Below are positions 27,042 to 44,169 of a stretch of DNA of 55,443 nucleotides, piece by piece (position 1 is the first letter of the stretch; each line of letters opens with the position of its first letter). The stretch comes from Pseudomonadota bacterium. GTDB taxonomy: Bacteria; Pseudomonadota; Gammaproteobacteria; Burkholderiales; Burkholderiaceae_C. Location of the stretch: the NCBI GenBank assembly GCA_021808525.1, contig JAKBBK010000012.1:1-55443 (forward strand), in the 5' to 3' direction. The notes under the pieces were generated by a model. The model made no database searches. It was not told where the DNA came from and was given only the letters and a program-made list of their open reading frames with translations. The translations under genes were made by a program, and so were the position numbers.

Positions 27042-28334
27042 TCAGCCCGCGAAAGCCGCCCAGGCCAGCGAGAGCAGCATGCTGGCGGCCAGCCAGGCCG
27101 CAGCCGGCAGCATGTCGCGCCGGCGCGAAAGGCCCAGGGCATAGGCCGCCTTGAGCAGGTTGTTGCTGCCCGAGGCGATGAGCACGGCGTGGATCACGGC
27201 GGAGGCGCCCACCTGGAAATGTCCGGCCAGCAGCGACAGCACGAAGGGGTCGATGTCGCTGAGTCCGACCACGAAGCTCAGCACGTTGAGCCCGCCGACC
27301 CCGAAGCGCGAGGTCACGAAGGAGGTGAGCGCGGCGAAGATCACGAACAGGGCCGCGAACAGCAGGGCCACCGGTAGATCCAGCGGGTTGCGCGGTGCCA
27401 GGCGGGCGGGCGCGCTCGCCGCGCCTGCGCCGAACTCTCCGGGGCCGCGCCCGGCGCGGCGCCACAGCAGCCAGGTCACGCCCAGGCTGAGCCCGCACAG
27501 CAGGCCGAAGGGCAGGGCCAGGCGCATGGCCGCGTCCAGATGCCCCAGCGCCGCGATCACCACCCACAGGCGCAGGTACATCATGGCCGTGGCCAGCACC
27601 GTGGCCGCCGGCGCCTGCGCGGCCAGCAGCTCGTCCTGGCGCGCCTGGCGGGCCAGCACCACCGTCGCCGCGGTGCTGGAGTACACCCCTCCGAGCAGCC
27701 CGGTCAGCAGCGTGGAAGCGCGTGGAAACACATAGGTGTGGGCGAGGTAGCCCGCGTAGGAGATGGCCGAGATCAGCACCACGGCCAGCCACACCTTGGA
27801 ATAGCTGATGGTGCTCAGCCCCGGGATCGGCGTGTCGGGCAGCAGCGGCAGCACCAGCCCCGCGATGATCAGGAACTTGGCCAGCGTGACTCCCTCGGAC
27901 ACCGGCATGGCATCCGAGATCTTGCGGATCAGGGGCTTTTCGGCCAGCATGAGGATGGCCACGATCAGCACGGCGGCGACCATCCAGGGCGGCTGGGTCT
28001 GGATCAGCGGCCCCAGCGCGTAGGCCAGCAGGGCGATCATGCCCGGCAGCAGCTCGCCGCCGGTGCCCCCGTCGCGCCCGGCGCGTGCCAGGTCCACCGC
28101 CAGCCAGGTCGCCAGGGCCGCCAGGCCCACCAGGTACAGCCCGCGAGGCCGGGTCCCGTCGAGCAGCCACAGCACGAAGCCCGCGGCACCGATCAGGGTG
28201 AGGGTGCGCGTGGTGCCGAAACCCACGCCCTCGTCCTGCGCGCGCCGGTAGCTGTGCAGCTCCAGCCCGAGCACGAAGGCCAGCGCGGCGCTGGCCGCGA
28301 ACTGCAGCAGCAGGGGCGGAAGGCCCGGGTTCAT
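27042..28334 (-). CDS. MgtC/SapB and DUF4010 family membrane protein
   Basis: 430-aa polytopic membrane protein. The first 140 residues have the MgtC/SapB-like pattern (LLLQFAASAALAFVLGLELHSYRR, GFGTTRTLTLIGAAGFVLW), and the rest is DUF4010-like, with VSEGVTLAKFLIIAGLVLPLLPDTPI and GLSDIDPFVLSLLAGHF near the C-terminus. About 12 hydrophobic segments are visible. The function of this family is not established. ATG 28334 overlaps the stop of the GntR regulator gene (ATGA), so the two are translated from one mRNA. This ties an unknown transporter-like protein to sugar-acid regulation. Confidence 0.85.
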   Translation of the reverse strand: MNPGLPPLLLQFAASAALAFVLGLELHSYRRAQDEGVGFGTTRTLTLIGAAGFVLWLLDGTRPRGLYLVGLAALATWLAVDLARAGRDGGTGGELLPGMIALLAYALGPLIQTQPPWMVAAVLIVAILMLAEKPLIRKISDAMPVSEGVTLAKFLIIAGLVLPLLPDTPIPGLSTISYSKVWLAVVLISAISYAGYLAHTYVFPRASTLLTGLLGGVYSSTAATVVLARQARQDELLAAQAPAATVLATAMMYLRLWVVIAALGHLDAAMRLALPFGLLCGLSLGVTWLLWRRAGRGPGEFGAGAASAPARLAPRNPLDLPVALLFAALFVIFAALTSFVTSRFGVGGLNVLSFVVGLSDIDPFVLSLLAGHFQVGASAVIHAVLIASGSNNLLKAAYALGLSRRRDMLPAAAWLAASMLLSLAWAAFAG

Positions 28335-29050
28335 TCGAGGCGCCGGCGGGTGTCGGCGAGCAGCCGACGCATGCGCATGAAGGCCGTGCGCTGGTCCTGC
28401 TCGCGAATGGCCTGGAACACCCGAAGGTGGTCGTCGAGGGCCTGCTTGAAGGTGTCGGCGCGCCGCGCCGACACGCCCAGCAGCATGCCCAGCGCCGAGC
28501 CGATCACCGAGGACAGGGGAATCAGAAGCTCGTTGTGCGTGGCCTCGAGCACGGCGACGTGGAATTGCAGGTCGGCCTCGACCCATTGCTCGACCACCTG
28601 GGAGTCGCGCATCGCCTCGCAGGCACGCTCGATGGCGCGAACATCCTCCGCGCCGCGATTGCGCGCGGCCAGCATGCAGGCATTGGGTTCGATGATCTCG
28701 CGGATCTCCCCCAGCTGGCGCAGCATGTCGCCGCCGGGGTCGGCCGCGCAGCGCCAGGCCAGCACCTCGGGGTCGAGCATGTTCCAGGCCGATACCGGCT
28801 GCACCCGGGTGCCGATGCGCGGGCGGGCCTTGAGCAGGCCCTTGGCCGCCAGCACCTTCACCGCCTCGCGCAGGGCGGTTCGGCTGACTCCCAGTTCCTG
28901 GCCCAGCACCTCCTCGCTGGGCAGGGTGCTGCCGCTGGGGTAGCCGCCGCCCACGATGCGCTCGCCCAGGCGCTGCACGACCTGTCGATGCAGCGCGGGC
29001 CCCGCCGATCCACCCTGGGCCGGACGCGGGACGGTAGGGGTCTTGGTCAT
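28331..29050 (-). CDS. GntR family transcriptional regulator (FadR/FCD subgroup), likely galactonate regulator
   Basis: 239-aa DNA-binding protein. An N-terminal winged helix-turn-helix (STLPSEEVLGQELGVSRTALREAVKVLAAKGLLKARPRIGTRV, residues 40-85) is followed by an all-helical FCD ligand domain with EIREIIEPNACMLAARN and DLQFHVAVLEATHNELLIPL, where His and Asp/Asn metal ligands are expected. It diverges from dgoK-dgoA and so is probably the galactonate or 2-dehydro-3-deoxygalactonate-responsive repressor of the island, by analogy with DgoR. A 13-bp motif in its divergent promoter recurs before the dehydratase gene. Confidence 0.88.
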   Translation of the reverse strand: MTKTPTVPRPAQGGSAGPALHRQVVQRLGERIVGGGYPSGSTLPSEEVLGQELGVSRTALREAVKVLAAKGLLKARPRIGTRVQPVSAWNMLDPEVLAWRCAADPGGDMLRQLGEIREIIEPNACMLAARNRGAEDVRAIERACEAMRDSQVVEQWVEADLQFHVAVLEATHNELLIPLSSVIGSALGMLLGVSARRADTFKQALDDHLRVFQAIREQDQRTAFMRMRRLLADTRRRLE

Positions 29051-29073
29051 GGCGTCGAAAGCGTTGTCGAATA

Positions 29074-42377: not shown

Positions 42378-42438
42378 GATCGGTCCGGATGACTCCGCGC
42401 GACGCGGCCGCGCGGGCAGGTTGGATGGGAGGGCGGGC

Positions 42439-44169
42439 TCAGTGGGATTCGCGAGGCACCGCGTCGCCCCGGCAGCCGGTGAGAAAGTCCAGGTCGGCTC
42501 CCAGGTTGGCCTGCTGCACATGGTGCACGTACAGGCGCACGTAGCCCGAGTCGGGCAGCGGCGGCGGGGTCCATGCGGCCCGCCGGCGCTGCAACTCGGC
42601 ATCGTCCACCAGCAGTTGCAGTCGGCGCGCCTCCACGTCGAGCTCGATCAGGTCGCCGTCGCGCACCAGCGCCAGCGGACCGCCGGCGGCGGCCTCCGGC
42701 GCGGTGTGCAGCACCACGGTGCCGAAGGCCGTGCCGCTCATGCGCGCATCCGAGATGCGCACCATGTCGGTGACCCCCTGGCGCAGCAGCTTGGGGGGCA
42801 GTCCCATGTTGCCCACCTCGGCCATGCCGGGGTAGCCGCGGGGTCCGCAATTCTTCAGCACCAGCACCGAGTCGGCGTCGACGTCCAGCGCGGGGTCGGC
42901 GATGCGCGCCTTGTAGTCCTCGATGGACTCGAACACCACGGCGCGGCCGGTGTGGCGCAGCAGGCCGGGCGTGGCGGCCGAGGGCTTGAGCACGGCGCCG
43001 TCCGGGGCCAGGTTGCCTCGCAGCACCGCGATGCCTCCCTGCTCGACCAGCGGCTGCGCCAGCGGGCGGATCACCTGTTCGTCGTGGCACTGCGCCTGCA
43101 TCACGTGGTCGGCCAGCACGCCGCCGGCCACGCTGGGCGCCTGGCCGTGCAGCAGCCCGGCCTCGAGCAGGCGCCGCAGCACCACCGGCAGACCGCCGGC
43201 GTAGTAGAAGTCCTCCATCAGGAAACGCCCCGAGGGCATGAGGTCGACGATGGTCGGAACCTCGCGCCCGAGGCGATCCCAGTCGTCCAGGCTCAGCGGC
43301 ACGCCCACGCGCCCGGCGATGGCCAGCAGGTGGATCACCGCGTTGGTCGAACCGCCGATGGCCCCGCACACGCGGATGGCGTTCTCGAAGGCCTGGCGGG
43401 TGAGGATGTGCGAGGGCCGTACGTCCTCGAGCACCAGTTCCACGATGCGACGCCCGGCGCGCTGGGCGAGGTCGAATCGCCGCGCGTCCACCGCGGGAAT
43501 CGCGGCGTTGTCGGGCAGGGCGATGCCCAGGGCCTCGACCAGGCAGGCCATGGTCGAGGCGGTGCCCATGGTCATGCACACTCCGCTGGAGCGCGACATG
43601 CAGCGCTCGGCCTGCATGAATTCCTGCTCGCTCATGGTGCCGGCGGCGACCGCCTCGGCGAATTTCCACACATGGGTGCCGGAGCCGATGGCCTGGCCCC
43701 GGAAGCGCCCGTTGAGCATGGCGCCGCCGGAGACCACGATGGTGGGCAGGTTCACGCTGGCCGCGCCCATCAGCGTGGCCGGGGTGGTCTTGTCGCAGCC
43801 GGCCAGCAGCACCACGCCGTCGAGGGGATGCGCGCGCAGCGCCTCCTCCACGTCCATGCTGGCCAGGTTGCGAAACAGCATGGCCGTCGGGCGCATCAGG
43901 GTCTCGCCCAGGGAGCTGACGGGAAATTCCAGCGGCAGGCCGCCGGCCTGCAGCACTCCATGGCGCACCCGCTCCGCCAGGTCGCGGAAATGGTGGTTGC
44001 AGGGGGTGAGGTCGCTCCAGGTGTTGCAGATGCCGATCACCGGGCGGCCGTCGAAGCTGTCGTCCGGCAGGCCTTCGCTCTTCATCCAGCTGCGGTGGAT
44101 GAAATTGTCCTTGCTGCGGCCTTCGAACCAGGCTTGGGAACGTCGCTTTTTCGGGGTGGAGGACGACAT
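42439..44169 (-). CDS. IlvD/Edd-family sugar-acid dehydratase (galactonate/arabinonate/fuconate type)
   Basis: 576-aa Fe-S dehydratase removing water from a sugar acid to give a 2-keto-3-deoxy acid. Cluster ligands Cys57 (LTPCNHH), Cys125 (AGCDKTTPA) and Cys198 (SGVCMTMGTAST) agree with the L-arabinonate dehydratase subgroup, as do FEGRSKDNFIHRSWMKSEGLPDDSFDGRPVIGICNTWSDL and GGSTNAVIHLLAIAGR. With dgoK, dgoA and two galactosidases nearby, D-galactonate is the most likely substrate; L-arabinonate and D-fuconate are alternatives. It is the first gene of the nine-gene galactoside operon, behind a promoter with the shared 13-bp motif. Confidence 0.9.
   Translation of the reverse strand: MSSSTPKKRRSQAWFEGRSKDNFIHRSWMKSEGLPDDSFDGRPVIGICNTWSDLTPCNHHFRDLAERVRHGVLQAGGLPLEFPVSSLGETLMRPTAMLFRNLASMDVEEALRAHPLDGVVLLAGCDKTTPATLMGAASVNLPTIVVSGGAMLNGRFRGQAIGSGTHVWKFAEAVAAGTMSEQEFMQAERCMSRSSGVCMTMGTASTMACLVEALGIALPDNAAIPAVDARRFDLAQRAGRRIVELVLEDVRPSHILTRQAFENAIRVCGAIGGSTNAVIHLLAIAGRVGVPLSLDDWDRLGREVPTIVDLMPSGRFLMEDFYYAGGLPVVLRRLLEAGLLHGQAPSVAGGVLADHVMQAQCHDEQVIRPLAQPLVEQGGIAVLRGNLAPDGAVLKPSAATPGLLRHTGRAVVFESIEDYKARIADPALDVDADSVLVLKNCGPRGYPGMAEVGNMGLPPKLLRQGVTDMVRISDARMSGTAFGTVVLHTAPEAAAGGPLALVRDGDLIELDVEARRLQLLVDDAELQRRRAAWTPPPLPDSGYVRLYVHHVQQANLGADLDFLTGCRGDAVPRESH

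Follow-up and report, generated by a model that had tools for sequence, protein, structure and literature searches.

A galactoside operon ending in a glpD-glpK glycerol module, plausibly for galactosyl-glycerol use, on a Burkholderiaceae_C contig

The window analysed here is the whole 55,443-nucleotide contig JAKBBK010000012.1 of assembly GCA_021808525.1 (Burkholderiaceae_C), and its coordinates are used throughout. The genome from which it comes, referred to as the window genome, has 3.2 Mb and is 90% complete. A candidate galactoside operon occupies the minus strand from 44169 down to 30803. Its gene order is ilvD-type dehydratase, malK, GH42, solute-binding protein (SBP), two permeases, GH36, glpD, and glpK. 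The dgoK and dgoA genes lie on the plus strand and face this operon, and a divergent gntR gene adjoins dgoK. An earlier note on this DNA had proposed that the island serves the catabolism of galactosyl-glycerol. Pfam domain searches and the curated NCBIfam cut-offs confirmed that the genes it named are present at or near their positions, and its further statements that dgoK-dgoA face the operon (PF05035 and PRK09140 matches, plus strand) and that glpD and glpK share an overlap (4 bases by the gene coordinates) were correct.

The glycerol genes were assigned by a profile search, in which both glpD and glpK scored above the curated NCBIfam cut-offs. The best solved relatives were glycerol kinases for GlpK and the aerobic glycerol-3-phosphate dehydrogenase 2qcu for GlpD. 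In the window genome, glpD has a single match, and glpK is the one clear glycerol kinase; a second kinase match, at 84 bits, belongs to a distant member of the FGGY family. The operon is tightly packed, with 4 bases between permease 2 and GH36 and 22 bases between GH36 and glpD. A simple consensus scan revealed no terminator-like site from GH36 through glpK and no sigma-70-like promoter on the minus strand of the 28200-45400 region. Over this whole region, one promoter-like site (0.7 in shuffles) and eight terminator-like sites (4.2 in shuffles) were found.

A 13-base operator-like word, TTGTATGATGATT, stands at the ilvD end and at the dgoK end of the island. A genome-wide scan of the window genome at up to one mismatch gave two sites, and the reversed-pattern control gave 0. 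The retrieved stretches of relatives were scanned at up to two mismatches (G and L numbers are our handles for genomes and loci). The word was exact at both the ilvD and dgoK ends in G008, G002, G018, G027, and the diverged G001. In G026, it was exact at dgoK and had 2 mismatches at ilvD. G004 (exact) and G023 (1 mismatch), whose stretches cover only the dgoK end, also carry it there. The retrieved stretches L047, L048, L049, and L060 gave no match. The gntR gene adjoins dgoK in relatives too, and an AraC-type gene lies upstream of the operon in all five close relatives whose stretch covers this place (L040-L044). The positions of the sites suggest that GntR binds to TTGTATGATGATT and that glpD-glpK belong to one regulon with dgoK-dgoA. 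The place of gntR beside dgoK points to a compound of the galactonate pathway as the probable effector.

A GH36 match was found in 9 of the 28 genomes of the genus. The GH36-glpD-glpK order is kept in seven species, i.e., the window genome, G002, G004 (over two contigs), G008, G018, G026, and G027. The earlier note had named a glpD-glpK adjacency peculiar to this one strain as a refutation of its proposal, and this refutation fails. The gap between GH36 and glpD is at most 37 bases in all seven, and in three of them (G018, G026, and G027) the last 4 bases of GH36 are shared with the predicted start of glpD. The glpD gene is single in G001, G002, G008, G018, G026, and G027, and in G004 it is present in two pieces on two contigs. 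The diverged G001 has the order ilvD-malK-GH42-SBP-F-G-GH36-SDR-SMP30-glpD, opposite to dgoA-dgoK. In G023, the end of a G001-type operon is seen, with glpD facing dgoA-dgoK at the contig start. The two genes that separate GH36 from glpD in G001 (L045:11493-13150) are of the SDR sugar-dehydrogenase type and the SMP-30 lactonase type; the window operon has neither. A second sugar-acid cluster with two G001-like SDRs, SMP-30, and an ilvD paralogue (69-70%) was seen in L149 and L150 (G026:C24 and G027:C86). In G016 (L046), a 48% GH36 occurs with a different CUT1 set.

Because gene geometry, the operator-like word, copy number, and conservation agree, the membership of glpD-glpK in the galactoside operon is supported by position: strand, overlaps, the operator pair, and kept neighbours. 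We infer that the glycosidases, the importer, and the glycerol genes form one unit under one control, co-transcribed and co-regulated. Thus, the claim that glycerol genes lie within a galactosidase operon stands as to position, and its second part, an imported substrate that contains both galactose and glycerol, is a prediction, as are the enzyme activities. The absence of GlpF had also been taken as support for the intracellular release of glycerol. No MIP (GlpF) match was found in the window genome, and 21 of the 28 genus genomes have none, including G005, G012, and G015, which possess glpD-glpK and no GH36. The absence is non-specific, and we rejected it as a pointer to the substrate.

In a glpD tree of 29 rows, the glpD genes of the window clade and of G005, G012, and G015 formed one group (9 rows, 100/100). 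The operon glpD genes of G001 and G023 fell outside this group, and all 11 together formed one clade (100/100). In G005, G012, and G015, the glpD-glpK pair is located beside phenylacetate-degradation-like genes (assigned by eye). In G009 and G014 (L051 and L052), glpK occurs in this setting without glpD, and no glpD was found in either genome. The tree is compatible both with a glpD of the ancestral galactoside operon, followed by the loss of the rest in the G005 group, and with two entries, and does not decide between them. The position of glpD is identical, following the GH36 module and facing dgoA, and this favours a single entry; the direction of gene gain is presumed. The G001 and G023 operons, which carry glpD without glpK, and the position of their glpD outside the group of the window clade and the G005-type pairs would suit another explanation, with GlpD as the central enzyme. 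In that case, the substrate would yield glycerol-3-phosphate, or GlpD would drain it (redox or lipid role) during growth on galactose, and glpK would be a later addition. Since glpK is also present in seven species, and no phosphatase or phosphodiesterase occurs among the operon genes, we consider this explanation very unlikely.

The GH36 protein keeps the motifs KWDMNR and TSDN in the alignment to 4fnr, and the GH42 protein keeps NEYG and MEQQPG in the alignment to 1kwg. We take these to be the catalytic motifs. Both enzymes are signal-less as judged by eye. The AcbH-type CUT1 set is complete and consists of an SBP homologous to AcbH, two permeases, and a MalK-type ATPase. It resembles a general importer of galactosides and is predicted to bind galactose or galactosides. 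Alignments of the SBP showed conserved stretches of sequence, and the receptor differences seen in a 13-row alignment were not attributable to the ligand pocket. AcbH is termed a beta-D-galactopyranose-binding protein (PMC8233162; papers cited by PMC number are represented here by excerpts). A GH36 enzyme is reported to join galactose to glycerol through reverse hydrolysis, yielding isofloridoside (PMC8509150), and therefore the GH36 family can, according to this excerpt, accept glycerol as the aglycone.

One of the 28 genus genomes has a match to the galactokinase family PF10509; the window genome has none. Therefore, galactose is expected to be metabolised via galactonate, 2-dehydro-3-deoxygalactonate (KDGal, used by DgoK), and its 6-phosphate (KDPGal, used by DgoA). 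The sole match of the genus, in G016 (G016:C140), lies about 12 kb from the 48% GH36 of that genome. The kinase and aldolase steps of the De Ley-Doudoroff route are represented by DgoK and DgoA, with the scores listed in Table 1. The dehydratase reached 932 bits with PRK06131, above the cut-off, and 863.5 with the L-arabinonate dehydratase model, just below the cut-off of 882. Its nearest solved relatives were 5j83-5j85 (854 bits for 5j83), 9evv ('L-arabinonate dehydratase', 851), and 7m3k ('Galactonate dehydratase', 504). The solved L-arabinonate dehydratases lie nearest to it, and its D-galactonate activity is predicted from the IlvD/EDD family. The SDR of the G001 operon is a putative dehydrogenase whose best model, D-xylose 1-dehydrogenase, is below its cut-off; it had no match in the window genome at E ≤ 1e-40, and a Gfo/Idh-type query reached 32.6 bits there. 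The aldo-keto reductase at 51504-52565 was considered as galactose dehydrogenase. This was a guess, set aside given that the model it matches is L-glyceraldehyde 3-phosphate reductase. An orthologue (79%) of this reductase sits just upstream of ilvD in G001.

The importer was then followed outside the genus. The locus scan ran from L040 on and excluded binding proteins of less than 38% identity or under half length (e.g., L148, L160, and actinobacterial loci); two of its loci, L045 and L059, belong to one genome. At E ≤ 1e-60, the SBP was found in 9 of 399 genomes of the order and 7 of 369 of the class, the window genome being counted in both, and all other sites were examined. The SBP also matched in 108 plasmid records, among which six regions were examined; for GH36, the best 80 of 591 relatives were used. 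The same binding protein (39-66% identical) occurs at 31 loci outside the genus, 22 with GH36 and nine (L139-L147) with GH42 and no GH36. They come from 29 genomes or records, two loci being found in each of G320 and G290. As far as named, they are alpha-, beta-, and gammaproteobacterial, plus one Desulfosarcinaceae metagenome-assembled genome (L094), and include Piscinibacter defluvii (L060), Hoeflea (L082), Mesorhizobium terrae, and Falsirhodobacter algicola, which has a red-alga source. At none of the 31 was glpD or glpK found within 9 kb; loci at contig ends (e.g., L076 and L159) could hide a gene. GH36 and/or GH42 thus accompany this importer generally, irrespective of glp genes. The earlier note had regarded GH36 together with GH42 as pointing to alpha-Gal-beta-Gal-glycerol, and we abandoned this pairing as a sign of digalactosyl-glycerol. 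Galactosyl-glycerol is still possible as a substrate at the glp-less loci, because glycerol genes elsewhere in the genome can serve.

Further cases of GH36 near glp genes, in other taxa, were rejected, with gene order judged partly by eye. In Caulobacter OR37 (L079), they form separate units with TonB-receptor-like and DeoR-like genes between them. In Sphingomonas (L063 and L069), GH36 and glp are about 7 kb apart, and glpK and glpD are divergent. In L124, a 32% glpD relative 4.6 kb from GH36 was set aside as a separate unit.

The 31 loci are what would be expected if the window operon were a generic alpha/beta-galactoside operon for melibiose, raffinose-type sugars, lactose, or galacto-oligosaccharides, with glpD-glpK as a lineage passenger and an imported sugar without glycerol. 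Ruegeria sp. TM1040 and Mesorhizobium terrae agree with this explanation, as do L157, L158, and L080, where the SBP is paired with GalK- and GalT-like genes (named by eye), and the glpD-glpK pairs that exist in the genus without the operon. It accounts less well for glpD-glpK lying between two operator-like words and 22 bases or fewer behind GH36 (at most 37 in the seven species), and for glpD within the same operon in the diverged G001 and G023. Moreover, the sole glycerol genes would stand behind a galactonate-type switch ill-suited to free glycerol. We regard a generic operon as a serious candidate that is, on balance, improbable.

The interpretation that we prefer is a widespread galactoside (De Ley-Doudoroff) operon with a glycerol module that is particular to this lineage and plausibly serves galactosyl-glycerols. 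The AcbH-type CUT1 transporter would take up galactosides intact; in the cytoplasm, GH36 would then hydrolyse alpha linkages and GH42 beta linkages. Galactose would be oxidised to galactonate and processed by the IlvD-type dehydratase, DgoK, and DgoA to pyruvate and glyceraldehyde-3-phosphate. Glycerol freed from galactosyl-glycerols would be converted through glycerol-3-phosphate to dihydroxyacetone phosphate by the module at the operon end. Candidate sources of glycerol are floridoside and isofloridoside (alpha), galactosylglycerol (beta), and digalactosylglycerol. The simplest reason for the sole glycerol genes to stand behind a galactonate-type switch would be a substrate that frees glycerol together with galactose. 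Judged from sequence, we give an even chance to a GntR-controlled galactoside operon whose glycerol module serves galactosyl-glycerol use. The stricter form is an operon dedicated to galactosyl-glycerol, in which one galactonate-type GntR switch would govern import, galactosidases, the De Ley-Doudoroff branch, and the sole GlpK-GlpD, so that both halves are burned as one nutrient. We propose this form tentatively, its chance being a little short of even.

Such substrates occur in nature. Galactolipids are main components of chloroplast membranes (PMC8333865), and galactosylglycerols are solutes of plants and algae. Galactosylglycerol is present in red algae (PMC5928181, PMC6320990) and, when leaves are infected, in their apoplast; the Pseudomonas syringae that infects these leaves showed no consumption of it in vitro (PMC11844564). 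The headgroup of digalactosyldiacylglycerol (DGDG), alpha-Gal-1,6-beta-Gal-glycerol, would be a special case of galactosyl-glycerol use. For its breakdown, an alpha- and a beta-galactosidase with GlpK and GlpD would suffice, and a red algal genus is reported to contain digalactosylglycerol in free form (PMC6320990). However, GH36 and GH42 go with the importer whether or not glp genes are near, and no feature here distinguishes the DGDG headgroup from floridoside or monogalactosylglycerol. As the specific substrate, this headgroup is unlikely.

Several findings weigh against galactosyl-glycerol use. Besides the 31 outside loci with no glp gene nearby, the glpD-glpK pair also exists without the operon (G005, G012, and G015), and G001 has no glpK in its operon and carries it elsewhere. 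With their common neighbourhood, the six close relatives count as a single case. The receptor is closest, among solved structures, to AcbH, a galactose receptor. GntR reaches the cut-off of no NCBIfam regulator model. No galactose 1-dehydrogenase was recognised with SDR and Gfo/Idh-type queries in the window genome, and at 90% completeness a further glpD or glpK could also be missing from it. If the proposal of galactosyl-glycerol use is true, the GH36-glpD-glpK linkage would be a genomic marker for bacteria that feed on floridoside or the headgroups of galactolipids, a counterpart of the sulfoquinovosyl-glycerol clusters, and the 37904-39142 protein would be a concrete receptor candidate for galactosyl-glycerols.

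Table 1. Features of the galactoside island and the matches on which their assignment is based (ORF, open reading frame).
Feature	Coordinates	Strand	Evidence or remark
AraC-type regulator	44297..45277	-	Pfam HTH_18 8.3e-25; upstream of ilvD
Operator-like word TTGTATGATGATT	44208..44220	-	Upstream of ilvD
ilvD/edd-type sugar-acid dehydratase (L-arabinonate/galactonate kin)	42439..44169	-	Pfam ILVD_EDD 3.9e-114
MalK/UgpC-type ATPase, CUT1 importer	41217..42377	-	PRK11650 435.7 bits, cut-off 432 (scanned as ORF 41217-42602)
GH42 beta-galactosidase (predicted)	39168..41192	-	Pfam 1.3e-150; aligned to 6y2k, 1kwg
Solute-binding protein	37904..39142	-	Pfam SBP_bac_1 1e-43; nearest solved relative AcbH (3oo6, 8.6e-58)
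CUT1 permease 1	36902..37819 (possible start 37765)	-	Pfam BPD_transp_1 4.9e-15
CUT1 permease 2	36051..36902	-	BPD_transp_1 7.1e-13 in ORF 36051-37781; gene call
GH36 alpha-galactosidase (predicted)	33905..36046	-	Melibiase 6.7e-115; aligned to AgaA 4fnr
glpD, glycerol-3-phosphate dehydrogenase	32308..33882	-	PRK12266 690.1 bits, cut-off 360; 2qcu 3.2e-141
glpK, glycerol kinase	30803..32311	-	TIGR01311 675.7 bits, cut-off 590.35; 2d4w 1.3e-179
dgoA, 2-dehydro-3-deoxy-6-phosphogalactonate aldolase	30127..30783	+	PRK09140 260 bits, cut-off 207
dgoK, 2-dehydro-3-deoxygalactonokinase	29150..30115	+	PF05035 3.6e-77
Operator-like word TTGTATGATGATT	29074..29086	+	Between gntR and dgoK; overlaps -10-like TATGAT
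gntR/FCD regulator, proposed repressor of both units	28331..29050	-	FCD 4.5e-21, GntR 2.4e-16 (ORF 28331-29929)

Other genes in the window were also noted. A second sugar system on the plus strand (46838-52565) comprises an RbsB-like binding protein, a permease, an ATPase, a FucU-type mutarotase, a ROK regulator, and the aldo-keto reductase, which belongs to the L-glyceraldehyde-3-phosphate reductase subfamily. The N-terminal part of a LamB-type maltoporin, a possible route of sugar entry through the outer membrane, lies at 54900-55443 (+) and is ended by the contig end. A Gig2-like/phytanoyl-CoA dioxygenase-type protein is encoded at 45297-46658 (+), divergent from the AraC gene, and is also present in L040-L044. 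Two consecutive proteins at 22794-26590 (+) each match Peptidase_S10 (serine carboxypeptidase) in part and, as judged by eye, begin with a signal-like sequence.

The proposed operon can be compared with four known systems. No bacterial galactosyl-glycerol operon with glycerol genes was found in the open-licence literature searched. To our knowledge, the lac operon of E. coli carries no glycerol genes. It is similar to the window operon in Egel's proposal that this galactosidase operon may serve galactosylglycerols derived from galactolipids, as cited in PMC8333865. The sulfoquinovosyl-glycerol cluster of Eubacterium rectale combines a glycosidase, sugar-breakdown genes, and a glycerol kinase, which according to its authors may aid the use of the released glycerol (PMC11968277, excerpt). 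It differs from the window in its sugar, its GH31 glycosidase, and its sugar pathway, and the window SBP weakly resembles the sulfoquinovosyl-glycerol receptor SmoF (7nbz, 7.9e-06). Given this glycerol kinase, the statement of the earlier note that no operon with this logic has been described was too strong. The operon of Ruegeria sp. TM1040 has the order SBP-F-G-alpha-galactosidase-ilvD-SDR-dgoK-dgoA-SMP30-beta-galactosidase. It shares with the window the importer family (SBP 45% identical), GH36, the dehydratase, dgoK, dgoA, and a beta-galactosidase. In contrast to the window, it has no glpD or glpK, includes SDR and SMP-30 genes, both absent from the window operon, and has an IclR-type regulator instead of GntR and AraC neighbours. 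The version in G001 (JABEVE010000016.1, Burkholderiales MAG 22) agrees with the window in its backbone order, the operator-like word at both ends, and the facing dgoA-dgoK; behind GH36, it carries SDR-SMP30-glpD where the window has glpD-glpK.

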